Source: Albidovulum sp. (lineage in GTDB: Bacteria > Pseudomonadota > Alphaproteobacteria > Rhodobacterales > Rhodobacteraceae). Taken from it: a stretch of 35,049 nt of DNA. This document shows positions 8,559 to 35,049 of the stretch, piece by piece. Every line of letters starts with the position of its first letter. Positions within the stretch are counted from its first letter, which is position 1. Under the pieces are notes generated by a model that was not told where the DNA came from, made no database searches, and saw only the letters and a program-made list of their open reading frames with translations. The stretch covers positions 1-35,049 of the forward strand of contig WFVA01000095.1 of NCBI GenBank assembly GCA_015491895.1, given 5' to 3'. The position numbers and the translations under genes were made by a program.

Positions 8559-8573
8559 CTCAATCCCTCCAGA

Positions 8574-16947: not shown

Positions 16948-17976
16948 ATGATGATGAGCAGCACCAAACCCGAAGCAAGGCCGGCCCTGCCGCCAAGCCC
17001 CGCCCCCGAGCGCGGGCGGGGGCGGCGGGATCTGTGGATCCTGCTCGGGCTGTTCGGGCTGATGATCGCCGGGCTCGTGGCCATGGCCGCCACTGCCGGC
17101 TGGGAGGAAACCCGTGCCCAGCTCGCCCGCATCTCGGGGCTCGAATTCCTTGCGCTGCTGGCGCTTTCGCTCGTCAATTACCTCTTTCGCGGGCTGCGCT
17201 GGCATCTCTTCGCGCGCCGCCTCGGCCTGCCCACGGGGCTTGTGCAGGATCTGCGCCATTTCCTCGGCGGCTTTGCCATGAGCGTCACGCCCGGGCGGGT
17301 GGGGGAGCTGGTGCGGATGCGCTGGCTGCGCCGCGAAACCGGCTGGCCGTTTGAACGCACCGCGCCGCTGGTGCTGATGGATCGCGCGGCGGATCTGGCG
17401 TCCATGGCGCTCATTCTCGGCATTTCGCTGGCCTTCGCCACGGTGGGCATAGCGGGCGGGCTGCCGGTGGCGGCGCTGGCGCTTGCGGGCGCAATCGTCG
17501 CCACCCGGCCGAAGCTTCTGGCGCTCTTGGCAACGCTTGGCTATCGCGGCACCGGGCGCGCACCGCGGCTCTTTGCCAGGCTGCGCCGCGCCGCGCGTTC
17601 GCTCAGGCAGTTCTCGCACCCGGCCGTGGTTGCCCCGGCGATCCTGCTCGGCCTTGCGGGCTGGGCGGCCGAAGGTTATGCCTTTGATCTTCTGCTGGGC
17701 TGGCTCGGGGCCGACATCGGCCTTTCCAAAGCGCTGGCCATCTTCGTGTTTGCCACCCTTGCGGGCGGGCTCACGGGCGCGCCCGGCGGCGTGGGCGGCG
17801 CGGAAGCGGCGATGATCGCGCTTCTGGCGATGGAGGGCGTGCCCTTCGAGGTCAGCCTGCCGGCGACCGCGATCATCCGCGTCACAACGCTCTGGTTCGC
17901 GATCGGGATCGGCCTTCTGGTCTTCCCCGTGGCCGAACGCATCTCTGGAAAGGCTCAGGATGCAGTGGAAAGATGA
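16948..17976 (+). CDS. Flippase-like integral membrane protein (UPF0104 / lysylphosphatidylglycerol-synthase TM family)
   Basis: 342-aa protein with about eight membrane helices and the UPF0104/TIGR00374 pattern: SLVNYLFRGLRWHLFARRLG near residues 70-90, SVTPGRVGELVRMRWLRR as the family signature, and TLAGGLTGAPGGVGGAEAAMIALLA toward the C-terminus (about 268-292). The family resembles the membrane part of MprF and includes proteins proposed to flip lipid-linked substrates. Three consecutive ATGs (16948, 16951, 16954) make the exact start uncertain and the ribosome-binding site is weak. It overlaps the DprE1-like gene by 17 bases, so its likely partner is the DprE1/DprE2-like pair; export of their lipid-linked sugar product is an inference, not something the sequence proves. 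Confidence 0.85.
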   Translation: MMMSSTKPEARPALPPSPAPERGRGRRDLWILLGLFGLMIAGLVAMAATAGWEETRAQLARISGLEFLALLALSLVNYLFRGLRWHLFARRLGLPTGLVQDLRHFLGGFAMSVTPGRVGELVRMRWLRRETGWPFERTAPLVLMDRAADLASMALILGISLAFATVGIAGGLPVAALALAGAIVATRPKLLALLATLGYRGTGRAPRLFARLRRAARSLRQFSHPAVVAPAILLGLAGWAAEGYAFDLLLGWLGADIGLSKALAIFVFATLAGGLTGAPGGVGGAEAAMIALLAMEGVPFEVSLPATAIIRVTTLWFAIGIGLLVFPVAERISGKAQDAVER

Positions 17977-19276
17977 GATCAACACCGGCTGGGGCCGGGT
18001 GCTGAAGGCGCGTGAGAAGGTGGCCCGCCCCGAGCGCGCCGCCGCCCTCGCCGCGCTCCTTGAAAGCACCCCCGCCCCCGCCGCCGGCATGCGCCGCTCC
18101 TATGGCGACGCGCCGCTCAATGACGGCGGCCATGTGATCGACATGACCCGCCTTGACCGCATCCTCGGCTTTGACGGCAAAACCGGCGTGATCGAGGTGG
18201 AAGGCGGGGTACGGATCGGCGAGCTTGCGCGCCTCTACGCCCCGCAGGGCTGGCTGCCCGCCGTGCTGCCCGGCACCGGATTTGCCACCGTTGCCGGCTG
18301 CATCGCCAATGACGTGCACGGCAAGAACCACCATCACATGGGCAGCTTCGGCCAGCATGTGAAAAGCCTTACCCTGCTCGGGCCTGACGGCAAGGCGCGC
18401 GTGATCGGGCCGAAGCGCAGCGCAAACCTCTTCCGCGCCACCGTGGGCGGGCTTGGCCAGACGGGGGTGATCCTCTCGGCAAAGCTGCAGATGATCCCCT
18501 GCAAGGGCGACGTGATGATGGTAACGGAGCGGCGGGCGGAGAATTTCGAGCAGTTTCTCGAGCTTCTCGATCACTCGTCGGCCACCTACACGGTGGGCTG
18601 GATCGATGCCACCGCGCGCGGCGAGGCGCTCGGGCGCGGCATACTGGAGGAAGGCGAAACCGGCTCCGGCCTCATGCCCAAGCCGAAGAAGGCGCGCGCG
18701 GTGCCGATGAACGCCCCCCATTTCGCGCTCTCCAAGCCCGTGGTGAAGCTCTTCAACCGCGCCTATTTCAGCCGCGTTCCCGCCCACGGGCGCACCTCGG
18801 TGAAGCGCATCGGCGAATTCTTCTTCCCGCTCGACAAGATCCATGACTGGAATCGCCTCTACGGCAAGCGTGGCTTCCACCAGTTTCAATGCGTGGTGCC
18901 GCTCGAAGCCGCCGGGCGCCTGCGCGAGATGCTCGAAACCATCGCCAGTTCGGGCCTTGCCTCGCCGCTCGCGGTGCTCAAGCGCATGGGGCCGGGGCGC
19001 GCGGGCATGATGTCCTTCCCGATGGAGGGCTACACGCTCGCCGTCGATTTCCCCAATCGCCCCCAGGCGCGGCTGCTGATCGCCCGCCTCGGCGAAATGG
19101 CCGAGGCCGCCGGCGGGCGTATCTATCTCGCCAAGGATTCGCTCGCCAGCGGAGCGCGGGTGAAGGCCATGTATGAAGAACACCCGAAATGGGCCGGGGA
19201 AGTGGCCGGGGCCGATCCCGAGGGCCGTTTCGTCACCGATCTCGTCCGCCGTCTTGATCTGAGGAGCCCGGCATGA
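17960..19276 (+). CDS. DprE1-like FAD-binding oxidoreductase (decaprenylphosphoryl-ribose 2'-oxidase family)
   Basis: 438-aa flavoenzyme related to mycobacterial DprE1, which oxidises the 2'-hydroxyl of polyprenylphosphoryl-ribose to a keto intermediate. FAD-binding half: RRSYGDAPLNDGG (about 45-57), LPGTGFATVAGCIANDVHGKNHH (residues 103-125; the HGKNHH..GSFG segment matches DprE1), then GGLGQTGVI. C-terminal substrate half: FPMEGYTLAVDFP and IYLAKDSLAS, with Lys392 at the position of the essential DprE1 lysine. The residue aligned with DprE1 Cys387, the benzothiazinone target, is Ala361. It overlaps the upstream membrane protein by 17 bases and the downstream SDR by four. Plant L-gulonolactone/alditol oxidase-like enzymes are more distant alternatives. 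Confidence 0.87.
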   Translation: MQWKDEINTGWGRVLKAREKVARPERAAALAALLESTPAPAAGMRRSYGDAPLNDGGHVIDMTRLDRILGFDGKTGVIEVEGGVRIGELARLYAPQGWLPAVLPGTGFATVAGCIANDVHGKNHHHMGSFGQHVKSLTLLGPDGKARVIGPKRSANLFRATVGGLGQTGVILSAKLQMIPCKGDVMMVTERRAENFEQFLELLDHSSATYTVGWIDATARGEALGRGILEEGETGSGLMPKPKKARAVPMNAPHFALSKPVVKLFNRAYFSRVPAHGRTSVKRIGEFFFPLDKIHDWNRLYGKRGFHQFQCVVPLEAAGRLREMLETIASSGLASPLAVLKRMGPGRAGMMSFPMEGYTLAVDFPNRPQARLLIARLGEMAEAAGGRIYLAKDSLASGARVKAMYEEHPKWAGEVAGADPEGRFVTDLVRRLDLRSPA

Positions 19277-20022
19277 ACAGCACAGCAAGCGAGACCTGGA
19301 TCATCCTCGGCGCCACCTCCTCCATGGCCCGTGCCTTTGCCCGCATCGTGGCCGAGGAGGGCGCACATGTGATCCTCGCCGGGCGCGATCTGGACGACAT
19401 GAAACGCACCGCCGCCGATTGCCGGGCGCGGGGAGCCGCCGGCGCCGAGGCGGTGAAATTCGATGCCCGCCGCCCCGAAAGCTTCAAGGCCCCGATCGCA
19501 CGGGCGAAGGAGGGGCCGGGCAGCATCAATGCCGCCGTCTTCATCGGCTCCATGCCCGATCAGGTGGCGATCGACGCCGATCCCACCCTGATCCGGGGGG
19601 TCGTGGCCGACAATTTCACCGGTCCGGCGGAATTCCTGCACAGGCTCGCCCCCCTTCTCGAGGAGCGCGGCGCGGGCACGATCATCGGCGTCGGTTCGGT
19701 GGCCGGGGATCGCGGGCGCATCGGCAATTACGTTTACGGCGCGGCGAAGGCGGGCTTTGCCACATATCTTTCCGGCCTGCGCAATCGCCTCGCGCGCAGC
19801 GGCGCGCATGTGATGACGGTCAAGCCCGGCTTCGTGGATACCGCCATGACCTGGGGGATCGAGGGGATGTTTCTCGTGGCCTCGCCGGAGAAGATCGCCG
19901 CCGATATTCTCAGGGCGGCGCGCAGGAAGCGCAACATCCTCTACACCCCCTTCTTCTGGCGCTACATCATGGCGATCATCCGCGCCATCCCCGAGCCGAT
20001 CTTCAAGAAGCTCTCCGTCTGA
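19273..20022 (+). CDS. DprE2-like short-chain dehydrogenase/reductase
   Basis: 249-aa SDR. The nucleotide-binding motif GATSSMA lies near residues 13-19 and the catalytic residues are Ser142, Tyr155 and Lys159 (VYGAAKAGF). The basic, hydrophobic C-terminal end (FFWRYIMAIIRAIPEPIFKKL) resembles the membrane-associating tail of mycobacterial DprE2 homologues. DprE2 reduces the keto intermediate made by DprE1 to give polyprenylphosphoryl-arabinose. The ATG overlaps the stop of the DprE1-like gene (ATGA), a strong sign of a two-step enzyme pair. SDR specificity cannot be read from sequence alone; the neighbour is the main argument. Confidence 0.87.
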   Translation: MNSTASETWIILGATSSMARAFARIVAEEGAHVILAGRDLDDMKRTAADCRARGAAGAEAVKFDARRPESFKAPIARAKEGPGSINAAVFIGSMPDQVAIDADPTLIRGVVADNFTGPAEFLHRLAPLLEERGAGTIIGVGSVAGDRGRIGNYVYGAAKAGFATYLSGLRNRLARSGAHVMTVKPGFVDTAMTWGIEGMFLVASPEKIAADILRAARRKRNILYTPFFWRYIMAIIRAIPEPIFKKLSV

Positions 20023-22469: not shown

Positions 22470-24131
22470 ATGGGCACAGGTAATCATTTGAAATTTCTGA
22501 TATTTCTTTCAGGGATCTTCCTCCTCTTCGCATTGCTCACCGCCTGGCCCGGCGTGCTGATGATCGACGGGCATGAAGGCGATACGCTGCACATGATGGA
22601 TATCCTGCTCAGGATGGATGCCGGCGCCCTGCCCCACAAGGATTTCATGACCCCGATCGGCATCCTCGCCTTCGCGCCGATCATACTGGTAATGAAGCTC
22701 GGCCCCGACATCGGCCAGGCCTTCATTCTGGGGAGCGTGCTCGTGAGCCTCGCCATCATGCCGATGCTCTGGCATGCGCTCGCAAGCCGCCTTGGCGGCG
22801 GGGCGATGGCGATGCTGCTCGGCTTTTACGTGATCGCGCTCTCCATGGCGCTGGTGCATGGCGGCGAGACCCCCACCATCGGCATATCCATGTATTACAA
22901 CCGCTGGGCCTGGGCGTTCAGCTACATCGCCATCCTGCTGGCCCTTCTCCCGCCCCGCACGCGAGCCAGGCCATGGCTCGATGGCCTGATCATCGGCCTC
23001 TGCCTTTCTGCCCTCGTGCTGATCAAGGTGACCTATTTCATCGCCTTCGCCCCTCCCATCGCGCTGGCGCTGATCCTGCGCCGGGCATGGGGCACGGCAA
23101 CGGCGGGCGCCATCACGGGGATCCTCGTGGCGCTTGGCGTCACCCTCCTGGCGGGGATGGATTTCTGGCTGGCCTATGTGGAAGATCTCCTCACCGTGGC
23201 CCGCTCAAGCGTGCGCCCGCAACCGGGGGCGCCTTTTGCCGATATCCTTTCGGCTCCGCAATTCATCGGCGGAACGGTGCTCGTGCTGGCAGCGATCATG
23301 ATGCTCAGAAAAAGCGAGCGCATGCGCGAGGGGCTCTTCCTCCTGCTGCTGGCGCCCGGCTTCTTCTATGTCACCTATCAGAATTTCGGCAATGATCCTC
23401 AATGGCTGATGCTTCTGGCAGCCCTGCTTTTCGCCTTCCGCCCCGAGGCCTCGCTGGAGACGGTCCGGGGCTGGAACTACCGCTTCATGCTCAATCTCGC
23501 CGTGGCAATCGCCCTGGCTCTCGCACTGCCCTCCGCCTTCAACATCGCCACCAGCCCGGTCCGCCATTTCGCCAAGGACCGCTCCGAATACACGCCCCTG
23601 CTGGGTGTTGCCGGGCTGCACCGCGATATCCTTTTCCGCAAGGAGCGCGTGCTGCCCTACATGGGCAAGGTGATCTTCGAAGAGCCCGAATTCGATCGCA
23701 CCCTCTTCGGCCTCGCCCCGCAGGAGGAGGACGAGGAAACCAGGCACCAGCGCGCCTATCTCCTCGGCCAGCCCCTGCCGCAATGCGAAATGGAAGCCGG
23801 GCTCGAGATCGTCTTCGCCACCGCCATGCAGGAAATCGAGGCCGACCCGGCCACCCGCGGCAAGCCGCTCTTCGCCGCCGACATCATCACCGGCTACTGG
23901 CTTTACGGGAAGGAAACCCCGCCCCTCCCGCATGGCGCGCCCTGGTATTACGCTGGGCTTCCGGGTATCGGGAATGCGGAGCTTGTGATCGTTCCGATCT
24001 GCCCGCTCTCGCGCCGCGCTCAGCGCGTGGCGCTGGAAGAGCTTGCAAAGCGGGAGGACATCACCCTGACCGAGATCCGCCGCACGCCGCTTTACATACT
24101 GCTGTCTGTCAGCCCTGCTTCCGGGGGCTGA
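22470..24131 (+). CDS. Polytopic membrane protein, GT-C glycosyltransferase-like
   Basis: 553-aa protein with roughly ten membrane helices in residues 7-370 and a C-terminal soluble, probably periplasmic domain (about 375-553). The first external loop contains clustered acidic and His residues (MIDGHEGDTLHMMD: Asp33, His35, Glu36, Asp38, His41), where GT-C enzymes carry catalytic acidic residues. GT-C enzymes use polyprenyl-phosphate sugars as donors. I do not recognise the exact family, so glycosyltransferase activity is a topology-based suggestion. If correct, the DprE1/DprE2-like product could be its donor. It is divergent from the AAA+ gene across 117 AT-rich bases and convergent with the tad locus; it does not look like a tad gene. 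Confidence 0.75.
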   Translation: MGTGNHLKFLIFLSGIFLLFALLTAWPGVLMIDGHEGDTLHMMDILLRMDAGALPHKDFMTPIGILAFAPIILVMKLGPDIGQAFILGSVLVSLAIMPMLWHALASRLGGGAMAMLLGFYVIALSMALVHGGETPTIGISMYYNRWAWAFSYIAILLALLPPRTRARPWLDGLIIGLCLSALVLIKVTYFIAFAPPIALALILRRAWGTATAGAITGILVALGVTLLAGMDFWLAYVEDLLTVARSSVRPQPGAPFADILSAPQFIGGTVLVLAAIMMLRKSERMREGLFLLLLAPGFFYVTYQNFGNDPQWLMLLAALLFAFRPEASLETVRGWNYRFMLNLAVAIALALALPSAFNIATSPVRHFAKDRSEYTPLLGVAGLHRDILFRKERVLPYMGKVIFEEPEFDRTLFGLAPQEEDEETRHQRAYLLGQPLPQCEMEAGLEIVFATAMQEIEADPATRGKPLFAADIITGYWLYGKETPPLPHGAPWYYAGLPGIGNAELVIVPICPLSRRAQRVALEELAKREDITLTEIRRTPLYILLSVSPASGG

Positions 24132-24160: not shown

Positions 24161-24667
24161 TCAGGATCCATGAAGGGCTGCGAGCACCAGATAGAAGACA
24201 AGCGCGCCGCCAAGGGCGATCCCCATGGGGAAATCCTTGTTGTCCCAGGATTTCCAGTCGCTTGTCAGCCGGCGGAAGGCTTTCGAGGCCTGAAAGAGGC
24301 GGTGCGTGACGAAAGCGGCGATCACGACGGCGGCAAAGAAGATCAGCATCTTGCCCGCGTCTTCCCGGGCGATGAAAGGCGCCATGGCGGCGGCGAATTT
24401 CGCATCCCCCGCCCCCACGAGCCCCGCCACGCTTAGGAGGAATCCGATCACCAGCACCACCACGAGATTGAGAAACCGCCAGAGATATTCATCCATCGGC
24501 AGGGCAATGAGCCCCACCACGAGATAGACAGCCACCAGCGCCAGCACCGCCGCATTGGGGATCTTCATGTATCTGAGATCGCTCCAGGCGGCCCAGATGC
24601 AGATCGGCACGACGAAGGGCAGGAACCACAGCGCCGCCCGGGCCGGTGTCACCAGTTCGATGTCCAT
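24161..24667 (-). CDS. cpaA: Prepilin peptidase CpaA/TadV
   Basis: 168-aa integral membrane aspartyl protease that processes Flp prepilins. The two catalytic aspartates are Asp30 (WSDLRYMKIPN) and Asp88 in the GAGDAKF motif (GxGD). It lacks the N-terminal methyltransferase domain of PilD, as expected for TadV-type enzymes. About five membrane helices. The start lies one base after the stop of the TPR lipoprotein gene. Last gene of the tad/cpa block and convergent with the GT-C-like gene (29-base gap). Confidence 0.94.
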   Translation of the reverse strand: MDIELVTPARAALWFLPFVVPICIWAAWSDLRYMKIPNAAVLALVAVYLVVGLIALPMDEYLWRFLNLVVVLVIGFLLSVAGLVGAGDAKFAAAMAPFIAREDAGKMLIFFAAVVIAAFVTHRLFQASKAFRRLTSDWKSWDNKDFPMGIALGGALVFYLVLAALHGS

Positions 24668-24668
24668 G

Positions 24669-25526
24669 TCAGTTCGTCACGTTGTTTTCCAGGGCCCGAA
24701 GCGAGCGCACCGCCGCCTCGAAATGCTGCGGATGAGTATCGATCGCCTCCTTCAGGAGCCCCTTGCCGATCGTCACATCGCCCTGCTTGATGGCGGCAAG
24801 CGCGGCCGTGTAAAGAAGCTCGGCGCGCTCCGTCTGGGTCATCGGGATTACCGGGAGCTGGTAATTGCGCTGCTTGGCGCGGGCCAGAACGAGATTGTTC
24901 TTGGCGGTGAAGAGGCTCCTGTCATAGGTGAGGGCCTGATTGAAAAGCCGCTCGGCTCCCTTGTAATCGCCGCGCGTCAACTTCGAAAAACCCCAGTTGT
25001 TATAGACACTTGCGGGCTTCGTGGTGAGGCCGGCGGCAATTTCGTAGAAGCTGTCGGCCTTCTTCCATTCCTTGTTGCTGTCGGCGATCATCGCCTCGAG
25101 GCGATAGCGCTTGTAGGTTTCATGGGTGGGCGGGATCTGATCCAGAACCGCTTCGGCCTTCTTCCATTCGCCGTTGCGGATCAGCGCATCGGCCCATTCG
25201 ACCTTGTCATCATTGGTGGCCTCGGGGCTTGTGGCGACCTGCTCCCAGGCCTTCACCCCTTCCGCCACCAGCCCCGCGCGGATCAGGGATTTCGCGAGGC
25301 CGCGCCTGAGATCTATGCGATCGGGCTTCTCGGCAGTCGCGCGGCGGAAATAGGCCACGGCCTCCTTGGGATCGGCCACCGTTAGCATCACGTCATTGAG
25401 ATTGGTTTCATCGATGGCATTGACGTCGCGCAGCGCCTTGCGGGCGGCTGACGAGCCGTTCTCGCCACAGCCGGCCAGAAGCAGCGTGCCGGCCAGGCAC
25501 AGCTTAAGAATGGTTGGATGGCGCAT
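24669..25526 (-). CDS. TPR-repeat lipoprotein of the tad locus (second of two)
   Basis: 285-aa predicted lipoprotein: signal LKLCLAGTLLLAGC with lipobox LAGC, then a largely helical region with tetratricopeptide-like units (for example PASVYNNWGFSKLTRGDYKGAERLFNQAL around 180-210). TadD-type TPR lipoproteins are outer-membrane-associated pilotins or assembly factors. The start at 25526 is supported by AAGGA upstream and by the signal peptide; a longer reading begins inside the previous gene. It follows tadD after 58 bases and is almost contiguous with cpaA. Confidence 0.88.
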   Translation of the reverse strand: MRHPTILKLCLAGTLLLAGCGENGSSAARKALRDVNAIDETNLNDVMLTVADPKEAVAYFRRATAEKPDRIDLRRGLAKSLIRAGLVAEGVKAWEQVATSPEATNDDKVEWADALIRNGEWKKAEAVLDQIPPTHETYKRYRLEAMIADSNKEWKKADSFYEIAAGLTTKPASVYNNWGFSKLTRGDYKGAERLFNQALTYDRSLFTAKNNLVLARAKQRNYQLPVIPMTQTERAELLYTAALAAIKQGDVTIGKGLLKEAIDTHPQHFEAAVRSLRALENNVTN

Positions 25527-25584
25527 CTTTGGCGTCCTTGTTACTGCTCGTTTCCTGTCGGACTGACGCGGCCGCGCCCCTTCC

Positions 25585-26154
25585 TCAAGGCGCACGGCGC
25601 AGGAGGTATCGCCCCCCGCCGCGCCGCACCAGCACGAATTCGCTCTTCTTTTGAGGCGCATCATAGGCCGGTTTGCGCGTTTTTGCGATAGCGAGGCGCA
25701 AATTATCGCGGATCGAGTCACTTTGGCCACTATCGAGCGCATAGGCCTTCTTGAAAACCTCCATCGCCTCGGCGGTTTCGCCCTTTTCCATCAGCACCAC
25801 GCCGAGGTTGTTCCAGGCGGCGGGAAATTTCTGATCCTTCTTCACCGCAAGGCGCAGGAGCTTCTCGGCCTGATTGAGCCGCCCGAGGCGCAGATTGGCC
25901 GAGCCGAGCGCGCTCAGCACATCGGCATTCATGCCATGCTGGGCGGCGGCGCGGTAATAGGCCTTGAGGGCAAGCTCGTATTCGCCCGCCGCCATCAGGC
26001 GGTGGCCCACTTCGAGGCCATCGGCCTCCGCCCCGCGCACGGGGCGGCCTGCCGGGGCGTAGGGATTATCGCCAAAAGCCTGCGGACCACCCGCCGACTG
26101 GCAGGCGGTCAGCAATGCGGCCACCGCGATCATCCCCACCCGTTTTCTGCCCAT
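25585..26154 (-). CDS. tadD: TadD-like TPR lipoprotein
   Basis: 189-aa lipoprotein with signal MGRKRVGMIAVAALLTAC (lipobox LTAC) and three or four TPR units between about 50 and 150 (LGSANLRLGRLNQAEKLLRLAV, residues 81-102; AAWNNLGVVLMEKGETAEAM). The tail is basic and aromatic (VRRGGGRYLLRR). It matches TadD, needed for Flp pilus assembly at the outer membrane. It starts three bases after the tadC stop, so it belongs to the tadA-tadB-tadC transcript. Which of the two adjacent TPR lipoproteins is the true TadD equivalent is uncertain; position favours this one. Confidence 0.86.
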   Translation of the reverse strand: MGRKRVGMIAVAALLTACQSAGGPQAFGDNPYAPAGRPVRGAEADGLEVGHRLMAAGEYELALKAYYRAAAQHGMNADVLSALGSANLRLGRLNQAEKLLRLAVKKDQKFPAAWNNLGVVLMEKGETAEAMEVFKKAYALDSGQSDSIRDNLRLAIAKTRKPAYDAPQKKSEFVLVRRGGGRYLLRRAP

Positions 26155-26157
26155 ATG

Positions 26158-27147
26158 CTACACGCCGAGCTGTTTCATCGTTTGCGCGATCCCGTAGATC
26201 GAAGGCCCGATCAGGATGATCAGGAGCGGCGGGACCGTCAGCATCATGGTGGCGAGAGTCATCTTCGTTGGCAAGGTATTTGCCTTTTCCTCCGCCCGCA
26301 TCACGCGCTTGTCGCGCATTTCCGCCGCATAGACGCGCAGGGCGTCGGCGATCGAGGTGCCGAAGGTCTGCGACTGGATCAGAACCGTCACGAAGCTCGC
26401 CACGTCGTCAACGCCGGTGCGTTCGGACATGTCGCGCAGCACCGAGGTGCGATCCTTGCCCGCCTTCATCTCGTTGGCGACGGTTTCGAACTCGTCGGCG
26501 AGATCGGGAAAGCCCGCGCGGATCTCCTTCGCCACCCGGATGATCGCCTGATCGAGCGATTGCCCCGCCTCGACGCACACGAGCATCATGTCGAGCGCAT
26601 CGGGAAAGCCGTTGGTGATGTTTTCCTTGCGCGTCTCCACCCGCCGGGTGACCCAGTATTTCGGCGCCATGTAGCCGATGAGGCCGGGGATGATGATCGT
26701 CAGGGCCACGTTCTGCGTGGTGGGCTCGCCATTCGAGAGCTTCATCAGCGCCCAGACACCGCCGAACAGGAGCCCGAGGATTCCGAGCGCGAACTGCATG
26801 AAATGATAGGTGCGCACCGCCGTCTTGCTGCGGTAGCCCGCCTGCAGGAGCTTGAGGCGCACCGCCGAAAGTTCCTTTTCATCCTGCGGCTCGAGGAAGG
26901 TGGAGAATTTTTCCAGCTTGTCCTTCTTGTTGTCGTGGCGCAGCGCCGGTCCTTTTCGCTTCTTGGCGTCGGCCCGTTCGCCGGCCTGGCTCTTGCGCAG
27001 CTTGTCGAGCGGATCCTGTTCCTTCTTCAGGAGCACCGGCAGCGTGAGCAGCACGAGAAACAGCCCGAGCACGCCAACCGCGATCAGGGGGCCGAACGGC
27101 CCGAGGCTATCGGTCAGAAACACTCTGATCTGTTCGATGAAATCCAT
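26158..27147 (-). CDS. tadC: Flp pilus inner-membrane protein TadC (type II secretion F-like)
   Basis: 329-aa membrane protein with an N-terminal helix, a Lys-rich cytoplasmic linker (about 40-80), two central helices, a T2SSF domain (about 170-300: DALDMMLVCVEAGQSLDQAI, ADEFETVANEMKAGKDRTSVL) and a C-terminal helix pair. TadB and TadC form the inner-membrane platform that couples the TadA ATPase to pilin extrusion. The start has a GGGGGAT ribosome-binding site and lies nine bases after tadB. Confidence 0.93.
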   Translation of the reverse strand: MDFIEQIRVFLTDSLGPFGPLIAVGVLGLFLVLLTLPVLLKKEQDPLDKLRKSQAGERADAKKRKGPALRHDNKKDKLEKFSTFLEPQDEKELSAVRLKLLQAGYRSKTAVRTYHFMQFALGILGLLFGGVWALMKLSNGEPTTQNVALTIIIPGLIGYMAPKYWVTRRVETRKENITNGFPDALDMMLVCVEAGQSLDQAIIRVAKEIRAGFPDLADEFETVANEMKAGKDRTSVLRDMSERTGVDDVASFVTVLIQSQTFGTSIADALRVYAAEMRDKRVMRAEEKANTLPTKMTLATMMLTVPPLLIILIGPSIYGIAQTMKQLGV

Positions 27148-27156
27148 GATATCCCC

Positions 27157-28125
27157 CTAGACCTTGATGTTCACGAGCGCGCGCATCACGATGATGTTGA
27201 CGATCAGGAAAGCCGCCACGATCAGCGCCGCGGGGATGAAGGCCGCGGTATCCTGCACGTCCTTGTAGTAATCGGGCTCAATCAGATTGATCGCGATCAG
27301 AGCGAAGATCGGAAAGCCCGAAAGGAACATGCCGGACCATTTCGCCTCCGCCGTGATCGCCTTGACGCGACGGAAAAGCCGGAAGCGCGAACGGATCACC
27401 TTCGCAAGCCCCTCGAGGATCTCGGCAAGATTGCCGCCCGATGTCTGCTGGATCGAAACCGCAACCGCGAGGAAGCGCAGATCCTGCAGATCGAGCCGCT
27501 CGGCCATGGCCTTCAGCGCCTCGCCCACATCGCGGCCGTAAGCCGCCTCGTCGGCGATCACGCCCATTTCCGTGCCCAGCGGATCGGGGACTTCCTTGGC
27601 CACGATCTGGATGGCCGAAACCAGAGGATGGCCCACGCGCAGGCTGCGCACCATCAGCTCCACCGCATCCGGGAGCTGCTCCTCGATCATCGCCAGGCGC
27701 TTCTTGGCCTTCTTGTTGATCCACATGTAGACGCCGCCAACGCCCATCACCACCGAAATGAGGAGGCGCACGGTAAGCGAGGCCTTGGTGCCGATGGTAA
27801 GCCCGAGAAAGGCGAAAACCGACAGCAGCGCCATGATCAGGATGATCTGGTTGGGCGAGAAGGCGATATTGGCCTTCTGGGCCTTGTTGGCGAGGATCGA
27901 ATAGATCGGGATCGAGCGCGCCTTCATGTGCTGGCTCATCTCCTTGCGGAGCTGCTCCAGCACCTGTTCGCGGCCCATGCCCTTCTCGAGCATCTCGAGG
28001 CGGCGGTTGACGCGGCTGTTGAGGCTGATCGACTTGCCGAAAACCGTGAGATAGAGCCCCTCCACCAGGAGCAGGACCGCGATGAAGATCAGCCCGTAAA
28101 CGACAAGCTCGGTGTTGAATGTCAT
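27157..28125 (-). CDS. tadB: Flp pilus inner-membrane protein TadB (type II secretion F-like)
   Basis: 322-aa membrane protein with the same layout as TadC: an N-terminal helix, a cytoplasmic segment rich in charged residues (SRVNRRLEMLEKGMGREQVL), two central helices (about 95-130), a T2SSF domain (LPDAVELMVRSLRVGHPLVSA, positions 154-174; QQTSGGNLAEILEGLAKVIR) and two C-terminal helices. It is part of the pilus-assembly platform with TadC. It starts five bases after the tadA stop. Confidence 0.93.
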   Translation of the reverse strand: MTFNTELVVYGLIFIAVLLLVEGLYLTVFGKSISLNSRVNRRLEMLEKGMGREQVLEQLRKEMSQHMKARSIPIYSILANKAQKANIAFSPNQIILIMALLSVFAFLGLTIGTKASLTVRLLISVVMGVGGVYMWINKKAKKRLAMIEEQLPDAVELMVRSLRVGHPLVSAIQIVAKEVPDPLGTEMGVIADEAAYGRDVGEALKAMAERLDLQDLRFLAVAVSIQQTSGGNLAEILEGLAKVIRSRFRLFRRVKAITAEAKWSGMFLSGFPIFALIAINLIEPDYYKDVQDTAAFIPAALIVAAFLIVNIIVMRALVNIKV

Positions 28126-28130
28126 CGTGC

Positions 28131-29573
28131 CTAACCTTCCACTGGTTCAAAGATTTCAGGCGGCAGATCGTAACCCCAGAGGCGGAAGCGCTCGGAGAAA
28201 TGCGAACGCACGCCGGTGGCCGTGAAATGGCCGATGATCTTGTTGTCGGGGGTGAGGCCGACGCGCTGGAAGCGGAAAACCTCCTGCATCGAGATCACCT
28301 CGCCCTCCATGCCGGTGATCTCGGTGATCGAGACCATCCGGCGCGAACCATCCTGAAGGCGCGAGGCCTGCACGATCAGGTTCACGGCCGAGGCGATCTG
28401 GCCACGCACGGCCTTGATCGGCATCTCGATCCCGGCCATGGCGATCATGTTTTCAAGGCGGCTAACCGCATCGCGCGCCGAGTTGGCGTGGATCGTGGTC
28501 ATGGAGCCGTCGTGGCCGGTGTTCATGGCCTGGAGCATGTCGATCACTTCCTCGCCGCGCGTCTCGCCGACGATGATGCGGTCAGGGCGCATCCGAAGCG
28601 CGTTGCGCAGACAGTCGCGCTGGGTGACGGCGCCCTTCCCCTCCACATTGGGCGGGCGGCTTTCCATGCGGCCGACATGGGTCTGCTGGAGCTGAAGTTC
28701 GGCCGTGTCCTCGATGGTGAGGATGCGCTCGGAATCGTCGATGAAGGAGGAAAGGGCGTTGAGCGTGGTGGTCTTGCCCGAGCCCGTCCCGCCCGAAACG
28801 ATGATGTTGAGGCGGGTGGCCACCGCCGCCTGCAGATAGGCGGCCATTTCCTCGGTGAAGGCGCCGAACCGGATCAGATCGTCGATCGACAGCTTTTCCT
28901 TCTTGAACTTGCGGATCGAAACCAGGCTGCCGTCCACCGCGATCGGCGGCACCATGGCGTTGAAGCGCGAGCCATCGGCGAGGCGCGCGTCAACGTAGGG
29001 GTTGGATTCATCCACCCGCCGGCCCACGGCGGAGACGATCTTGTCGATGATCCGCAGGAGGTGCTTTTCATCCTTGAAGGTCACATCGGTAAGCTCGAGC
29101 TTGCCGTTGCGCTCCACGAACACCTGATGCGGACCGTTCACCAGGATATCGTTCACCGTGTCGTCGCGCAGCAGCGGCTCGAAGGGGCCGAGGCCCGTCA
29201 CTTCGTCATAAAGCTCCTGATTGAGCTGGGTGCGCTCCTCGCGATTGAGCACGATGCTCATTTCCTCGAGCGCTTCCGTCGCGATCGCGCTGATCTCGGC
29301 CTTGAGTTCCTTCTCACTCGCGTTTTCGAGCGCGGAAAGATTGAGCGAATCGAGGAGCCGCTGGTGCAGCTGGACCTTGATCTCGCTGAGCCGCTCCTTG
29401 CGCTTCTTTTCCTTGTCGGCCGGCGCCGCCTTGGCCGGCGCGTCTGCCTTGCGCAGATTTGCAGGCTCCGCCCTGGCGGCGGCAACGGGCTTTTCGACGA
29501 CCTTGGCAACCTTCGGGCCAACAACCTTGCCGGCCGGCTTTTCAGTGCCCGATTTCTTGTAACGCGAGAACAT
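28131..29573 (-). CDS. tadA: Flp pilus assembly ATPase TadA/CpaF
   Basis: 480-aa hexameric secretion ATPase of the VirB11/PulE superfamily that powers Flp pilus extension. The N-terminus (about 1-70) is Ala/Lys/Glu-rich and probably disordered. The nucleotide-binding core has Walker [16 protein letters not shown] with Lys267, an Asp box ([12 protein letters not shown]), Walker [16 protein letters not shown] and a His box ([13 protein letters not shown]). These are the TadA/CpaF hallmarks. It follows cpaE/tadZ after a 57-base gap. Confidence 0.96.
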
Positions 29574-29630: not shown

Positions 29631-30872
29631 CTATTTCCCCGCCGCTTCCGAAACATTGACCTCGTGAACCGATACCGCGAGCTTGTGAAGCTCCTTGCGC
29701 AGCGGGTTCTTCGGCGCGCTTTCAGCCAGCGGAAGGCCGTGATCTCCGGCCTGGAGCACCTGCTTGCCGCCATCGGGCAAAAGCACCTCGATCTTGATAT
29801 CAAGGCTCTCGGCCAGGCGCTTCACGCGCGCCTTGCCGTTGAGATCGGTGAATTTCGGTGCCCTGTTCAGGATGTAGCGCAGCTTGTTGTGCGGCAGTTC
29901 CTCGCTTTTCAGGGCGCGGATGAGGCGCAGGGTATTCTGCGCCGAGCGCATGTCGAGCTCGAGCGTGGCGAAATAGACATGCGCCTCGTTCAGCACCGCT
30001 TCCGTCCAGTTCACGAGGGTCGATGGCATGTCGATGATGACGTAATCGAAATTCAGCCGCGCCGTTTCGATGATCCGCTTCACATCCTCCGATGAGATCA
30101 GATCCAGCGGCAGCATCTCCGAGGGAGATGTGAGCACATGCAGCTTCTCGTTGAAGCTCAGGAGCGCCTGCATGAAGGCTTCGCTGTCCATGGCTTCGGT
30201 ATCCGAAAGGAGCTCGTAGACAGCCTCGCGCCGCGGCAGATCGAGATAGGTGGCGACCGTGCCGAATTGCAGATCGAGATCGATCAGACAGACGCGCGGG
30301 GGATCCTTCTTCTCGATATTCGCCAGCTCCCAGGCGAGGTTGACGGCGAAGGTGGTGGCGCCGGTGCCGCCGGCGAGCCCGTGCACCGCCATCACGACGG
30401 CATCGTGATTGTTGGTCGCCTTGAGAGTGGTGCGCTGATCGGCGGCGATCTCGCCGGCGGCGGGCGCGGCGCGCAGGCGCTCGATCGCCTGGTGCAGTTC
30501 GCCCTCGGGCAGCGGATAGGGCACGAAATCATCGGCACCGAGGCGCAGCAGCTGGTGCAGCGCGATCGGGCTCACCTCCTCGGCGATGAGGATGACCTTG
30601 ATGCCCTTTTCCTTGGCGGTTCGGATGATCTCACCGATCCGCGGCAGCTCCGCTTCGTCCTGGTCGTCCACCGCGATGGCGACGAATTCCAGGTATTCCG
30701 CTTCCGGCTGATGCAGGAAGACCTTCGCATCCTCGAAAGAAAGATCGCCCCAGCTCTCGCCGAGCTCGGATTCCATGTCATCGATCAGAAGATCGAAATT
30801 CTGCACATCACGCGAAATCGTGCAGGCCACGATCGGTGATGGTTCAGGCTGCAGCATCGCATTACTCGCCAT
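29631..30872 (-). CDS. cpaE: Pilus localisation ATPase-like protein CpaE/TadZ
   Basis: 413-aa protein with an N-terminal atypical receiver-like domain (about 15-135; LLRLGADDFVPYPL) and a C-terminal MinD/ParA-like domain (from about 155). The P-loop region reads HGLAGGTGATTF (164-175), without the lysines of a normal deviant Walker A, a divergence also seen in other CpaE proteins. CLIDLDLQFGTVATYLDL follows. CpaE/TadZ places the secretion apparatus at a cell pole. The ATG at 30872 is preferred, with AAGGA upstream; the TTG two codons earlier is less likely. Confidence 0.93.
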   Translation of the reverse strand: MASNAMLQPEPSPIVACTISRDVQNFDLLIDDMESELGESWGDLSFEDAKVFLHQPEAEYLEFVAIAVDDQDEAELPRIGEIIRTAKEKGIKVILIAEEVSPIALHQLLRLGADDFVPYPLPEGELHQAIERLRAAPAAGEIAADQRTTLKATNNHDAVVMAVHGLAGGTGATTFAVNLAWELANIEKKDPPRVCLIDLDLQFGTVATYLDLPRREAVYELLSDTEAMDSEAFMQALLSFNEKLHVLTSPSEMLPLDLISSEDVKRIIETARLNFDYVIIDMPSTLVNWTEAVLNEAHVYFATLELDMRSAQNTLRLIRALKSEELPHNKLRYILNRAPKFTDLNGKARVKRLAESLDIKIEVLLPDGGKQVLQAGDHGLPLAESAPKNPLRKELHKLAVSVHEVNVSEAAGK

Positions 30873-31021
30873 TGCCAAACGTCCTTCATCTCTGCGACGA
30901 AAGGGATTTCAGACCATCCCCACCCACCCAGGCGGGACGCCACCCTCTTTGTCGGCACAGGGCACGATTGCCCGTGTGAACACTTCCTTACCGGATGAGG
31001 ATGCCGCGAAATCTTGGCAAC

Positions 31022-31083: not shown

Positions 31084-31707
31084 TCAGTTGTTGTTGCTGG
31101 TGGAATATCTCGGCTCTTCCGTCGCGCTGCTCACATATTCGCGGGCAATGATCGCTGCATATTTTCCGTTCAGAACCAACGGGTTGCTCTTGACGAAGCC
31201 GGAAACTTCCGTCACCGCGCGGCGATTGCGGCGCTCGCGGCCCTCCGTCGGGATCAGGGGGCGCGTTTCCCCGTAGGAAACAACCGCCTGAAGCCGCTTG
31301 CGGCTGATTCCCTGGCTCGTGAGATAATTCACCACCGCACGCGCGCGGCGCATCCCGAGGCGCTTGTTGTAGGCTTCGGTGCCGACCTTGTCGGTGAAGC
31401 CGAACACCTTGAAGCGCACTTCCGGGAACTGGCGGATCCAGTCCGCCTGCTTGCGCAGCACGGCCTTGGCGTTTTCATCGAGGCGCGCGCTGTCGAAATC
31501 GAAGGTCACGGTATTGGGCACTTCGCGGGCGAAGCGATGCGCGAGGTTGATGGTGTAATCGCGCGCTCCCGTTGCCACCAGGGTGTTGTTCATGGTGGGG
31601 TTGCCGAAATTGCCTTCGTCCAGTTCGCTACCCGCCTCGCGGTCGCTGCAGGCAGCGAGGGCGGCAATGCCGGCCGTTGCGACGACGATCCTGATCTTGC
31701 TCTGCAT
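31084..31707 (-). CDS. OmpA-family lipoprotein of the tad locus
   Basis: 207-aa predicted outer-membrane lipoprotein: signal with lipobox LAAC at about 17-20, then an OmpA/MotB peptidoglycan-binding domain (about 68-170) with VTFDFDSARLDENAKAVLR, GFTDKVGTEAYNKRLGMRRA (the NxxLxxxRA-type signature) and GETRPLIPTEGRERRNRRAV. It likely anchors the secretin complex to peptidoglycan. It starts four bases after the cpaC stop, so it is co-expressed with the secretin; OmpA-like proteins are common in alphaproteobacterial tad loci. Confidence 0.92.
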   Translation of the reverse strand: MQSKIRIVVATAGIAALAACSDREAGSELDEGNFGNPTMNNTLVATGARDYTINLAHRFAREVPNTVTFDFDSARLDENAKAVLRKQADWIRQFPEVRFKVFGFTDKVGTEAYNKRLGMRRARAVVNYLTSQGISRKRLQAVVSYGETRPLIPTEGRERRNRRAVTEVSGFVKSNPLVLNGKYAAIIAREYVSSATEEPRYSTSNNN

Positions 31708-31711: not shown

Positions 31712-33103
31712 CTACTCCATCACATAGCCATAGGAGGCATTGAAATCCTGCCGCGCCACTTCTCCGGCCGGCCCCTTGGGCGCGGCTGTCTTGCCGCCGA
31801 TGAACAGCTCTTTCTCGGAGGGCGGGCGCACCCGATCGGTGGGCAGCGCAAGCGCCTCGCCGCGGGTGGGCGTGACCAGATGCGGGGTGACGATGATCAC
31901 CAGCTCGCTCTGATCGCGGCGATAATTCGTGCTGCGGAAGAGCGCGCCCAGCACCGGCAGATCGCCAAGCCAGGGGAGCTGGTTGATCTGATCGCGGAAA
32001 TCATCCTGCAGCAGGCCGGCGATGGCAAAGCTCTGGCCGTCACGCATTTCCACGGTGGTGGACGTCTTGCGGGTGCGGAAGGCGGGGACCGAGAAGTCGG
32101 GGCCCACCTGGAAGGCGTTTGCGGTATCGACACCGGAAACCTCAGCTTCCATCCGGAGATTGATGATGTCGCCATCCACCACCCGGGGCGTGAATTTCAT
32201 AAGCACGCCGAATTCCTTCCATTCCACAGTGATGGTGTTGTTCTCCTGGGCCACCGGGATCGGGATCTCGCCCCCGGCGAGGAATTCCGCTTCCTGGCCG
32301 GAAAGGGCGGTGAGATTGGGCTCGGCGAGGGTGCGCACGAGGCCCTTTGTTTCCAGCGCCTCGAGAAGCACGCCGAACTGGACCGAACCAAGGGTGAAGC
32401 CGAGGCGCGCGCCGCCGGCGACACCGGTTTTGACCACCGTCCCCGGAACACCCACATCATTGCCGGGCGTGAGCCAGCTTCCCGTTTCGAGCTGGACATC
32501 ATTGCCGGCGATACCGAAGGATGTGGAAAGCTCCTTCACCACCGAGCGCTGCACCTCCGCGAAACGCACCTTCAGCATCACCTGCTGCGTGCCGCCCACG
32601 TTCATCAGGTTGGACACCCGGTCCGGCGCGTAGCGGTTGGCCAGATCGAGCGCGCGATCGAGCTTCATGGTGCTGGAGACGGTGCCGGAAAGCACGATGC
32701 CGTCATTGGCGGTGCGCACCTCGATCGGCTCGCCCGGCAGGATCTGGCGCAGCCGCTCCTTGAATTCCGCGATATCGGGGGTGACATGCACCTCCACATT
32801 GGCGATCAGCCCGCCCGCGTCATCAAGAAGCGTGAGCGTGGTGCGCCCCGGGGTCTTGCCGAGCACGTAGATCGACTTGTTGGAAAGCGGGGTCGTGTCC
32901 GCGATATCGGGATTGGCGATCGAAAGCTGGCCGTAGGGCTCCTCGCTCTCGACAACTACCGCCCGGTTCATCGGCACCTTGAGCGCGGCCGAGGGCGCCC
33001 CCCGGACGACCTTCAGCGTTTCCGCATCGGAAACGGTGGGGATCGCGGTGAAACTCACGGCAAACCCGATGAGGGCCGCCTTGAAAAAACTGCTCATCTG
33101 CAT
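31712..33103 (-). CDS. cpaC: Flp pilus outer-membrane secretin CpaC/RcpA
   Basis: 463-aa secretin with a signal peptide (FFKAALIGFAVSFTAIPTVSDA, residues 5-26), an N-terminal pilus-secretin domain (VPMNRAVVVESEEPYGQLSIANPDIAD, about 42-68), a BON-like middle section (GIVLSGTVSSTMKLDRALDLA) and the type II/III secretin core (about 200-420: LAEPNLTALSGQEAEFLAGGEIPIPV, about 280-305, and ELVIIVTPHLVTP). It forms the outer-membrane pore for the pilus. The ATG at 33103 is chosen for the AGGA ribosome-binding site and the signal peptide; a longer reading upstream has no signal sequence. Confidence 0.94.
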   Translation of the reverse strand: MQMSSFFKAALIGFAVSFTAIPTVSDAETLKVVRGAPSAALKVPMNRAVVVESEEPYGQLSIANPDIADTTPLSNKSIYVLGKTPGRTTLTLLDDAGGLIANVEVHVTPDIAEFKERLRQILPGEPIEVRTANDGIVLSGTVSSTMKLDRALDLANRYAPDRVSNLMNVGGTQQVMLKVRFAEVQRSVVKELSTSFGIAGNDVQLETGSWLTPGNDVGVPGTVVKTGVAGGARLGFTLGSVQFGVLLEALETKGLVRTLAEPNLTALSGQEAEFLAGGEIPIPVAQENNTITVEWKEFGVLMKFTPRVVDGDIINLRMEAEVSGVDTANAFQVGPDFSVPAFRTRKTSTTVEMRDGQSFAIAGLLQDDFRDQINQLPWLGDLPVLGALFRSTNYRRDQSELVIIVTPHLVTPTRGEALALPTDRVRPPSEKELFIGGKTAAPKGPAGEVARQDFNASYGYVME

Positions 33104-33321
33104 TGTGATCCTGCCTCTCTGACCACCAAAATGGATACGGATCTGATCGCCCGTTTGGACGGCAGGATGCAGGAAACCGTTAAATATTGCAAGAATCAAA
33201 GCCTTGCCGGGCGAAAGTCATGTGGACAACCCGCAACACTTCACTATTTGTTGTGGCAGGAGAGAGGCGCGCCCCCACATGAGGTGATGCGCACGCCTGC
33301 CCGGCTACGGGAAACCCGCCC

Positions 33322-34158
33322 CTAGTCGGGGCAATTGATCTCCACCTCGACAATCTCGGTGCCCTTGCGCTGACGAATGGTGCAGACCCTGTCCGGCACC
33401 GTTTCGACAACCGCCTCACGCTTGATGCCGAGGAGCTTGTCCTGATCGATCTCGATCTTCCCGCTGACCACATCTTCCGCATTGCCGACCAGCGAGAGCG
33501 AAAGGCGGCCCGTTGCCTGGGCCTGCGCGAGGGCGGCCACATCCTCGGGCGTCACCTCCACCGTCACGGTGCGGGCGATCACGGCGCCGTCCTGATCGAT
33601 GTCGGTCTTCTGATCGACGGCGATCAGCTTCAGCCCCGAGCGGATGAGCTTGGTGACGTTCTGATCGAGGATCCGCCCCGTCCAGTAGACATCGACGACA
33701 TCCCCCGGCCGCAGGAAGCCCGAAACCCCGCTTGTCGCATCCACCTTGATGGCGAAAGCGCGCATGCCGCGCGAAAGGCGGGAGGTGATCCCCACGATCC
33801 TGCCGGGCTCTGTCACCTTGGCGGCCAGCACCGGCTCGTTCTTCTCGAACTGGCGCGTGGCGCGGCGCGGAATGCCTGTGCCCTTGGGAAAGAGCTCCTC
33901 CTCGGTGCGAAAAACGCCCTCGGGCAGGGAATCCTCGGGCCATTTGATCCTGCGCACGTCATCCTTGCCGATCTCCTCGCCATATTTGATCTGCCGGTTG
34001 GTCACATAGACCTCCACGGTGGGAACGATCCTGGCAAGCTGCGCGCGCTCGGCTTCAAGCCGCGCCTGGTAGCTGTCCACATAGCCCTTGGCCATGTAAA
34101 CGGCGAAGGCCGCAAGCGCGACCCCCAGCACGAGAACCAACCCGAAAACCATCCGCAT
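33322..34158 (-). CDS. cpaB: Flp pilus assembly protein CpaB/RcpC
   Basis: 278-aa periplasmic protein anchored by an N-terminal helix (about 3-22). A SAF domain follows (about 47-115: EVYVTNRQIKYGEEIGKDDV, residues 48-67), then the RcpC/CpaB domain (RGMRAFAIKVDATSGVSGFLRPGDVVDV, about 131-158). The family is thought to help secretin gating or assembly. The start has a GAGGAAG ribosome-binding site seven bases upstream. A 218-base gap without a recognisable gene separates it from cpaC, and a 232-base gap from the second pilin. Confidence 0.93.
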   Translation of the reverse strand: MRMVFGLVLVLGVALAAFAVYMAKGYVDSYQARLEAERAQLARIVPTVEVYVTNRQIKYGEEIGKDDVRRIKWPEDSLPEGVFRTEEELFPKGTGIPRRATRQFEKNEPVLAAKVTEPGRIVGITSRLSRGMRAFAIKVDATSGVSGFLRPGDVVDVYWTGRILDQNVTKLIRSGLKLIAVDQKTDIDQDGAVIARTVTVEVTPEDVAALAQAQATGRLSLSLVGNAEDVVSGKIEIDQDKLLGIKREAVVETVPDRVCTIRQRKGTEIVEVEINCPD

Positions 34159-34390: not shown

Positions 34391-34570
34391 TCAGTCCGTC
34401 GAGACGGTATCGATGAAAGAGGCAATATCGCTCGATTTCGCCACCGAAGCCTGGCGGATCGGCACGGCAACCGCCACGCCGAAGAGAACGATGCCGGCGG
34501 TGATCATTACCCAATCGACAGTGACTGCCGCATCTTCATCCCGCAGAAATCGGCTGATCGCGTTACGCAT
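34391..34570 (-). CDS. Second Flp-type pilin (59 aa)
   Basis: 59-aa prepilin found by reading the minus strand. It begins MRNAISRFLRDEDAAVTVDW and continues as one hydrophobic helix (about 21-37) and a polar tail ending VSTD. It aligns without gaps to the other 59-aa pilin in this window; VTVDW at 16-20 is identical. At the predicted cleavage position residue 14 is Ala here, Gly in the other. It could be a minor pilin, a second major pilin, or poorly processed. Its base composition and lower GC third positions differ somewhat from its neighbours. It lies between the first pilin and cpaB. Confidence 0.82.
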   Translation of the reverse strand: MRNAISRFLRDEDAAVTVDWVMITAGIVLFGVAVAVPIRQASVAKSSDIASFIDTVSTD

Positions 34571-34795: not shown

Positions 34796-34975
34796 TCAGT
34801 TCACCGAAACGCTGCCCACGGCCTGCGAGATCTTGGTGCCGAGCGCGTCGGTCGAGCTGCGCACGCTCGCCACGACGGCGATGCCCATGCCCACGATCGC
34901 GGCGGTCAGAACCACCCAGTCAACGGTCACGGCGCCGGATTCGTCACGGGCGAAATTCTTGATGAGGTTCAGCAT
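34796..34975 (-). CDS. Flp-type pilin (59 aa)
   Basis: 59-aa prepilin, the likely major subunit of the tight-adherence pilus. A short basic leader (MLNLIKNFARDESG) ends with Gly14; predicted cleavage by CpaA gives a mature start AVTVDWVVLTAAIVGMG, which is a membrane helix, followed by a short polar tail. Classical Flp pilins have Glu5-Tyr6 after cleavage; here the pair is Asp-Trp. The start at 34975 has an AAAGGAAAG ribosome-binding site. It is followed by its own terminator, a usual arrangement for a highly expressed pilin. Confidence 0.93.
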   Translation of the reverse strand: MLNLIKNFARDESGAVTVDWVVLTAAIVGMGIAVVASVRSSTDALGTKISQAVGSVSVN

Positions 34976-35049
34976 TGTCTTTCCTTTCAGTGGTCTTGCA
35001 TTCGCTTGCATTCATCTCTCACCAGGCGATCCCTGCCGCCTTGGTATGA

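Follow-up and report, generated by a model that had tools for sequence, protein, structure and literature searches.

Decoration of pili with D-arabinofuranose has been described in Pseudomonas paraeruginosa where, according to the cited passages, the sugar is attached to type IVa pilins by the GT-C enzyme TfpW and confers resistance to pilus-specific phages (PMC12369383, PMC11841053). A Citrobacter study supplies, in the parts cited here, a general frame of a synthase, an optional epimerase, a flippase and a GT-C enzyme; it places DprE1 and DprE2 homologs in candidate systems for arabinofuranose-containing glycans, assigns a single short-chain dehydrogenase/reductase (SDR) to the xylofuranose system, and states that direct evidence is lacking for the MATE and SMR flippase candidates (PMC11127046). 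Because lipid-linked arabinose is already known in Gram-negative bacteria, the core claim of an initial annotation of the DNA studied here, that this alphaproteobacterium makes such a donor, is not new. That DNA, referred to as the window, is the whole 35,049-nucleotide stretch of contig WFVA01000095.1 from Albidovulum sp. (Rhodobacteraceae; assembly GCA_015491895.1). The window carries a three-gene operon for a UPF0104 (PF03706) membrane protein, a DprE1-like oxidase and a DprE2-like SDR, followed by a gene for a GT-C-fold membrane protein and a locus for a Tad (Flp, type IVc) pilus (Table 1). We read these genes as belonging to a complete pathway that would add arabinofuranose to the Tad pilus, a proposal whose chance of being right as a whole is judged just short of even.

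In the proposed pathway, a HAD-UbiA fusion protein encoded on another contig of the same genome (C141) would transfer phosphoribose from phosphoribosyl pyrophosphate to polyprenyl phosphate and remove the 5-phosphate, as suggested by homology and active-site residues. The DprE1-like enzyme would then oxidise C2 and the DprE2-like enzyme reduce it, to give polyprenyl-phosphate D-arabinofuranose on the cytoplasmic side; judging from homology, synthesis of this donor is very probable. The UPF0104 protein, standing where certain related operons have GtrA, would flip the lipid-linked sugar to the periplasmic side, a step that fold, gene order and co-occurrence make reasonably probable. Finally, the GT-C enzyme, which likely uses this donor, would move arabinofuranose onto a Tad component in the periplasm, for which the exposed tail of the small Flp pilins is the likeliest candidate; a pilin or other Tad component is somewhat favoured as the acceptor. 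If Pseudomonas is a guide, the arabinofuranose may protect the pilus against phages or help in its assembly. The initial annotation had not gone beyond envelope glycans for the destination; the findings here favour the Tad locus and a GT-C gene outside the region that it covered.

The present system fits the Citrobacter frame with three changes: a PF03706 protein in the flippase place, an unnamed GT-C family, and a Tad pilus as the probable client. Citrobacter youngae O1/O2 (ORF15, ORF14 and ORF12, the last of family GT136) likewise combines a HAD-UbiA fusion, an epimerase, a flippase candidate and a GT-C enzyme. In the three-component pentofuranose systems, as far as the cited report describes them, the flippase candidate is a MATE protein (an SMR protein being proposed in mycobacteria) and the acceptor is O antigen (PMC11127046), whereas the flippase candidate of the window is a PF03706 protein and no GtrA match was found in the window genome. 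P. paraeruginosa PA7/Pa5196 shares with the system proposed here a UbiA-type transferase, a D-arabinofuranose donor and a GT-C transferase for the pilus (PMC12369383, PMC11841053, PMC11127046). According to the parts cited, the TfpW system serves a type IVa pilus and its D-arabinofuranose genes lie in a separate genomic island, whereas here the pilus is of the Tad/type IVc class and the transferase gene stands at the Tad locus; two further differences from P. paraeruginosa are that synthase and HAD phosphatase form one fusion protein here and that PF03706 is the family of the linked membrane protein. The mycobacterial pathway (Rv3806c, Rv3807c, DprE1, DprE2, Rv3789, AftA/Emb) is matched by the oxidase (249 bits to solved DprE1), by the fusion (100 bits to the solved mycobacterial phosphoribosyltransferase 8j8j) and by the GT-C model, which is nearest to AftA. 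It differs in that the phosphatase here is fused to the synthase, PF03706 replaces the SMR-type Rv3789, and one linked transferase stands where mycobacteria use a transferase set to build arabinan. The predicted UPF0104 fold is that of the MprF flippase domain (PF03706), but the protein has no synthetase domain, and the cargo proposed for it is a sugar on polyprenyl phosphate rather than lysyl-phosphatidylglycerol.

The coordinates of the three operon genes, with ATG starts, all on the plus strand and overlapping by 17 and 4 bases, were as initially annotated. A family set of 61 Rhodobacteraceae genomes (G000-G060) was searched for DprE1, GT-C, UPF0104 and the fusion; the UPF0104, DprE1 and DprE2 genes were contiguous in 16 of them, window genome counted, so that the linkage is not due to chance. 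The oxidase signatures reported earlier were all found, HGKNHH from residue 120, GSFG from residue 128 and YLAKDS with Lys392, as were Ser142, Tyr155 and Lys159 of the SDR, whose gene adjoins that of the oxidase. His120 and Lys392 align with His132 and Lys418 of Mycobacterium tuberculosis DprE1, which we take to be important residues of that enzyme. Ala361 stands at the position of Cys387 of the same enzyme, presumably the residue bound by benzothiazinones. An alditol oxidase identity was ruled out by sequence search rather than by a tree, the score to xylitol oxidase 2vfr being 43.9 bits, far below that to DprE1. Since both proteins scored under the NCBI equivalog cut-offs (Table 1), they are named DprE1-like and DprE2-like here; the 500-bit cut-off of NF053785 was reached in none of the 386 genomes of a class-wide draw. 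Three deviant DprE1/DprE2 pairs (L317, L318 and L319; 230-244 bits to the family profile) were seen in three genomes of one family, with no synthase near.

The phosphoribosyl transferase and phosphatase that would supply the substrate had been said to lie outside the window and a genome search had been suggested; both were found there, as the single HAD-UbiA fusion of contig C141, which also carries a pilin and a lytic transglycosylase. Three UbiA matches were present in the window genome, and the one at 7617-8630 was rejected as the phosphoribosyl transferase, being heme O synthase (TIGR01473, 330 bits; cut-off 210.3). The fusion passed the PRK08238 cut-off (Table 1) and scored 146.6 bits, under the cut-off of 207, with the decaprenyl-phosphate phosphoribosyltransferase model. 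It has an N-terminal HAD domain with Asp10 and a C-terminal UbiA domain with N238-D239-D242-D246 and R357/E360. The NDxxDxxxD motif, the R/E pair and the HAD Asp have the same spacing as the residues mutated in Citrobacter ORF15, as given in the cited part of PMC11127046. The 151 bases shared by the window and C141 could mislead by themselves, because they extend into a pilin gene that has a near-copy; the join is supported by one same-genus relative, G002 (a second being G003), where all the genes concerned are on a single contig and CpaB, transglycosylase and fusion genes follow each other in this order. With the catalytic residues kept and the substrate-supplying enzyme located, epimerisation of polyprenyl-phosphate ribose by the DprE1-like and DprE2-like pair, as the initial annotation had put forward, is supported at the level of sequence.

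It is quite unlikely that the product is a different pentofuranose, with the SDR acting alone or with other stereochemistry to yield ribofuranose or xylofuranose. The sub-threshold scores of both epimerase proteins would agree with such a product, as would genome G047, which has a HAD-UbiA fusion (C9:62432-63847, 448 bits) and no strong DprE1, so that an unepimerised ribofuranose variant may exist in the family. However, the window has a DprE1-type oxidase in addition to the SDR, in contrast to the xylofuranose system, and homologs of both enzymes are reported in the candidate arabinofuranose-glycan systems, as far as the cited passages go (PMC11127046); their catalytic residues are also kept here.

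The UPF0104 gene was followed in 64 genomes, that is, the family set and three genomes with DprE1 from outside the family. Matches were found in 19, all with DprE1: 17 of the 19 strong-DprE1 family genomes (in one case just a fragment), two of the three outside the family, and none of the 42 other family genomes. The structure model, built from three sequences, has a modest mean predicted local distance difference test (pLDDT) score of 66.4. It matched six MprF entries with Z 20.5-23.1 (best 6lvf, Z 23.1 over 263 residues, root-mean-square deviation (rmsd) 4.1), the next row having Z 6.2. Gene order is consistent with UPF0104 taking the place of GtrA, as the slot between fusion and DprE1 genes holds a GtrA protein in G014, G044 and G099 and UPF0104 in G094. 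Among 48 DprE1 loci of the class, with genes placed by profile positions, UPF0104 was near in seven, GtrA in 12, both in none and neither in 29. Of 16 family genomes in which UPF0104 is intact, 11, including the window genome, gave no GtrA match; this lends weak support, because 13 of 17 family genomes without DprE1 were also without a match in the same search. In L305 (G386), UPF0104 stands before the fusion gene instead of between fusion and dprE1, and the DprE1 there is of the lower-scoring group in the 48-locus set, which was split at 440 bits, a value picked after the scores were known.

The earlier idea of UPF0104 as the flippase partner thus gained an MprF flippase fold and a distribution that tracks DprE1; together with the gene order, these suggest that it may transport a lipid-linked sugar. 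A rival explanation, which we consider doubtful though of some weight, is that an unlinked transporter flips the product and that UPF0104 serves, for example, in lipid supply or as a scaffold for DprE1 and DprE2. In G039 most of UPF0104 has been deleted, the ends alone being left upstream of dprE1 (L103, C7, 55051-55500), and DprE1, DprE2, fusion and GT-C are kept; two GtrA genes elsewhere in that genome may or may not compensate. Elsewhere in the class, nine of the 15 DprE1 loci that resemble the window's had neither UPF0104 nor GtrA near, and even in the systems already studied, the MATE and SMR proteins put forward as flippases lack direct evidence according to their authors (PMC11127046). 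Against this rival stand the MprF fold, the restriction of UPF0104 among the 64 genomes to those with DprE1, and its occupation of the GtrA slot of sister operons, and a flippase role is preferred.

The GT-C gene lies 2.4 kb downstream of the operon, and its product matched no Pfam or NCBIfam family. Of 80 named loci carrying relatives, four were dropped because they had an odd length or lacked a usable start codon, and another 15 because they were over 75% identical to a kept one; the remaining 61 and the window made up a 62-row alignment (A2), from which an AlphaFold2 model with pLDDT 93.1 was obtained. When the model was compared with solved structures by VIA-align, the 41 highest rows were all GT-C-type enzymes or complexes containing one, led by AftA (Z 12.7 over 413 residues, rmsd 7.0), Pmt4 (12.6) and ArnT (12.2); four of these rows are GPI-transamidase entries, counted as GT-C type by the fold that we take its PIG-U subunit to have. 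The call was based on the uniformity of the top rows, as Z of about 12 would in itself be borderline. In the model, a first helix (residues 6-25) is followed by a loop holding the invariant D38, H56 and D58; this small, presumably extracytoplasmic domain after the first transmembrane helix, together with the predicted fold, places the protein in the GT-C superfamily. GT87 was matched weakly by seven of the 62 members (best E 3e-4). One scan found 359 relatives, and none were found in a plasmid collection. The profile gave three matches in the 386 class genomes, the window's own in full and two partial ones in another family; only six members of the window's own family were recognised in that draw, so the family limits of GT-C are weakly probed by it.

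In each of the 17 family genomes carrying GT-C, and in 70 of the 80 named loci, the prepilin peptidase gene comes next downstream of it; one further locus (L194) is a rearranged Tad locus. Among the other nine, two have fewer than 150 bases left downstream, two have 1.1-1.3 kb and five have 2.9-10 kb. CpaA, CpaB, CpaC, CpaE, CpaF, TadB, TadC, TadD and Flp-like pilins are all present in the Tad/Flp locus of the window.

The presence of GT-C and of DprE1 was compared across the family set. Strong DprE1 was defined as a score above 340 bits, all other family genomes scoring below 70. There were 19 genomes with strong DprE1, 17 with GT-C and 16 with both, so that strong DprE1 occurred in 16 of 17 GT-C genomes and in three of the 44 others (Fisher p 8e-11, kinship ignored). 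In the sole exception among GT-C genomes, G022, DprE2 stands at the start of a contig; the three strong-DprE1 genomes without GT-C are G001, G014 and G044, the last two having a different operon. DprE1 was also present in 41 of 46 GT-C genomes reached via the named loci, a sample of the 80 that followed no fixed rule and favoured named genera; at least one of its loci, L150 (G101), is from the same genome as G039, so the two sets overlap. Both a GT-C locus and a DprE1 are present in the records of Maritimibacter alkaliphilus HTCC2654 and Thalassobium sp. R2A62. None of the three results named in the initial annotation as refuting it was obtained: the three operon genes keep their linkage, the genome encodes a phosphoribosyl transferase, and sequence search puts the oxidase closer to DprE1 than to alditol oxidases.

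Such an association could arise by hitch-hiking, if the topA-region block and the Tad locus were co-inherited and their co-occurrence reflected shared ancestry only. In a tree of four Tad proteins from the 37 family genomes whose Tad DNA had been retrieved, the labels were clustered, GT-C presence requiring seven changes against 12.5 for shuffled labels, and in six independent pairs the sign test was borderline (median p 0.06, range 0.03-0.38, for DprE1; median p 0.03 for UPF0104). However, at least six of the changes fall on supported branches, and GT-C and DprE1 were mostly gained or lost together: DprE1 followed GT-C in four to six of the pairs, and 3 of 200 random pairings contained a single pair that went the opposite way. 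Locus comparison points the same way. The two inserts flank opposite ends of a 10 kb Tad block that relatives without them keep, and the stretch contains no GT-C, DprE or fusion gene at any of 20 Tad loci taken from GT-C-free family genomes, 18 of which also have no strong DprE1; relatives therefore differ by inserts at both ends of the block, mostly gained or lost together. The association persists even in G006, where the parts are separated: on one contig, the CpaC-to-CpaA genes and GT-C lie 1.6 Mb from dprE1, with which fusion and CpaB remain. In G015 and G039 the GT-C/Tad part and the dprE1 part are on different contigs and may be near to or far from each other. Co-inheritance alone is consequently regarded as very unlikely, and a functional tie between donor genes and GT-C is preferred.

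A number of observations weigh against arabinofuranosylation of the Tad pilus, in addition to the equivalog scores, the GtrA absences and the G039 deletion given above. Arabinose on the pili or in the lipids of this genome is read from genes and not from chemistry. A Z of 12.7 is by itself borderline for a helical protein, and Foldseek with the GT-C model gave no match at E <= 0.001. The donor could also be used by two other PMT_2 proteins of the window genome. G001 has the UPF0104-DprE1-DprE2 operon and the fusion, with no GT-C and no TadB match, although sequence may be missing there because contig ends fall at the Tad borders. Five of the 46 GT-C genomes, including Thalassobius sp. I31.1 and Aliiroseovarius marinus strain A6024, had no DprE1 match. 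In the five loci with 2.9-10 kb after GT-C (L156, L160, L169, L199 and L219), no window gene was recognised in that DNA and GT-C stays beside the AAA gene; a second GT-C copy of G060 (L121, C7:103514-105040) has no recognised Tad genes in 20 kb. The pilin tails of GT-C genomes were without significant enrichment of Ser/Thr (fraction 0.294 vs 0.241, p 0.056; counts 6.3 vs 5.9, p 0.63), and this candidate mark of glycosylation was dropped. The same tails were shorter (21.4 vs 24.5 residues, p 0.007) and less acidic (net charge -1.1 vs -2.7, p 0.001), but these differences are not relied on, as they come from a comparison of five features with no correction for kinship.

The last three of these observations, the unlinked GT-C loci (5 of 80), the G060 copy and the pilin tails, are also what would be expected if the donor is correctly identified and the GT-C enzyme modifies another periplasmic acceptor, such as lipopolysaccharide, an adhesive polysaccharide or an envelope protein, its linkage to Tad arising because both serve surface attachment. 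In the characterised three-component pentofuranose system the acceptors are O antigens, according to the cited part of PMC11127046, and related operons of G099, G448 (L283) and G207 (L303) have large membrane proteins beside dprE1/E2 and no Tad match in the stretch. We nevertheless hold another acceptor to be unlikely. The GT-C gene adjoins the prepilin peptidase gene in the great majority of loci, and does so even in G006, where the Tad genes are distant from dprE1, and the 17 window proteins scanned with Pfam matched no polysaccharide assembly family. A Tad component thus stays the preferred acceptor.

Table 1. Positions of the genes discussed, in window coordinates unless a contig or locus is given; model cut-offs in brackets.
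Feature	Position	Strand	Evidence
UPF0104 / PF03706 membrane protein, 342 residues; proposed flippase for polyprenyl-phosphate arabinofuranose	16948..17976	+	PF03706 145.7 bits (33.4); TIGR00374 78.8 (43.2)
DprE1-like flavin adenine dinucleotide (FAD) oxidase, 438 residues	17960..19276	+	NF053785 387.6 bits (curated cut-off 500; next family 52.7); PF01565 66.8 (26.4)
DprE2-like SDR reductase, 249 residues	19273..20022	+	PRK07102 271 bits (267; broader model); NF053786 166.3 bits (250); PF00106 104.2 (26.6)
LytTR-type regulator gene	20209-20973	+	downstream of dprE2
ATPase-like (AAA) protein, 449 residues	21003-22352	-	no family over cut-off
GT-C-fold membrane protein, 553 residues; proposed Tad pilus arabinofuranosyltransferase	22470..24131	+	predicted fold
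CpaA/TadV-type prepilin peptidase	24161..24667	-	PF01478 46.7 bits; adjoins GT-C gene
Two TPR proteins, TadD-type	24669..26154	-	TPR families; conserved position
TadC and TadB inner-membrane proteins	26158..28125	-	PF00482, PF19360
CpaF/TadA secretion ATPase	28131..29573	-	PF00437 230.6 bits
CpaE/TadZ-type ATPase	29631..30878	-	PF13614 51 bits
OmpA-family lipoprotein of Tad locus (labelled CpaD)	31084..31707	-	Pal/OmpA models, under cut-offs
CpaC/RcpA secretin	31712..33199	-	PF00263 157.5 bits; start codon uncertain
CpaB pilus assembly protein	33322..34158	-	TIGR03177 205.2 bits
Flp-like pilin, 59 residues, AAVTVDW motif	34394..34570 (without stop codon)	-	similar small open reading frames in Tad stretches of relatives
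Flp-like pilin, 59 residues, GAVTVDW motif; proposed acceptor	34799..34975 (without stop codon)	-	near-identical copy on C141
Last 151 bases of window, equal to bases 1-151 of C141 (same genome)	34899..35049		sequence identity
HAD-UbiA fusion, 482 residues	L003:880-2328 = C141:1750-3198		PRK08238 502.7 bits (351)

Three small Flp-like pilin genes stand in tandem (window 34394-35049 and C141 334-537), two of them nearly identical, and the assembly breaks in one. The pilin family PF04964 was below threshold in the window genome and fails as a marker for these short pilins. The LytTR gene also follows dprE2 in G002 and G003, and some relatives have more distant LytTR genes close to the Tad locus. 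The AAA gene is conserved beside the GT-C gene in 77 of 80 GT-C loci and lies within about 250 bp of the peptidase gene in 17 of 20 Tad loci without GT-C; it is possibly an unrecognised Tad-associated gene.

The open-licence literature searched gave neither a link between lipid-linked arabinose and Tad pili nor a pairing of it with an MprF-fold protein. That Rhodobacteraceae arabinofuranosylate their Tad pili via an unnamed GT-C family, with a PF03706 protein of MprF fold as the dedicated flippase replacing GtrA/SMR, is offered tentatively, as a possibility below even chances. The analysis proposes a function for a GT-C family of several hundred relatives, and a candidate flippase whose gene is linked to DprE1/E2 in strains from the environment would make the flipping step testable outside mycobacteria, whose cell walls are where the sugar concerned is best known. 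If the reading as a whole is true, MprF-fold proteins would gain a role in the movement of lipid-linked sugars, and arabinosylation would be a modification of type IVa and type IVc pili alike. Should the pilin prove to be the acceptor, D-arabinofuranose would be carried not only by the type IVa pili of Pseudomonas but also by Tad pili in common marine bacteria.

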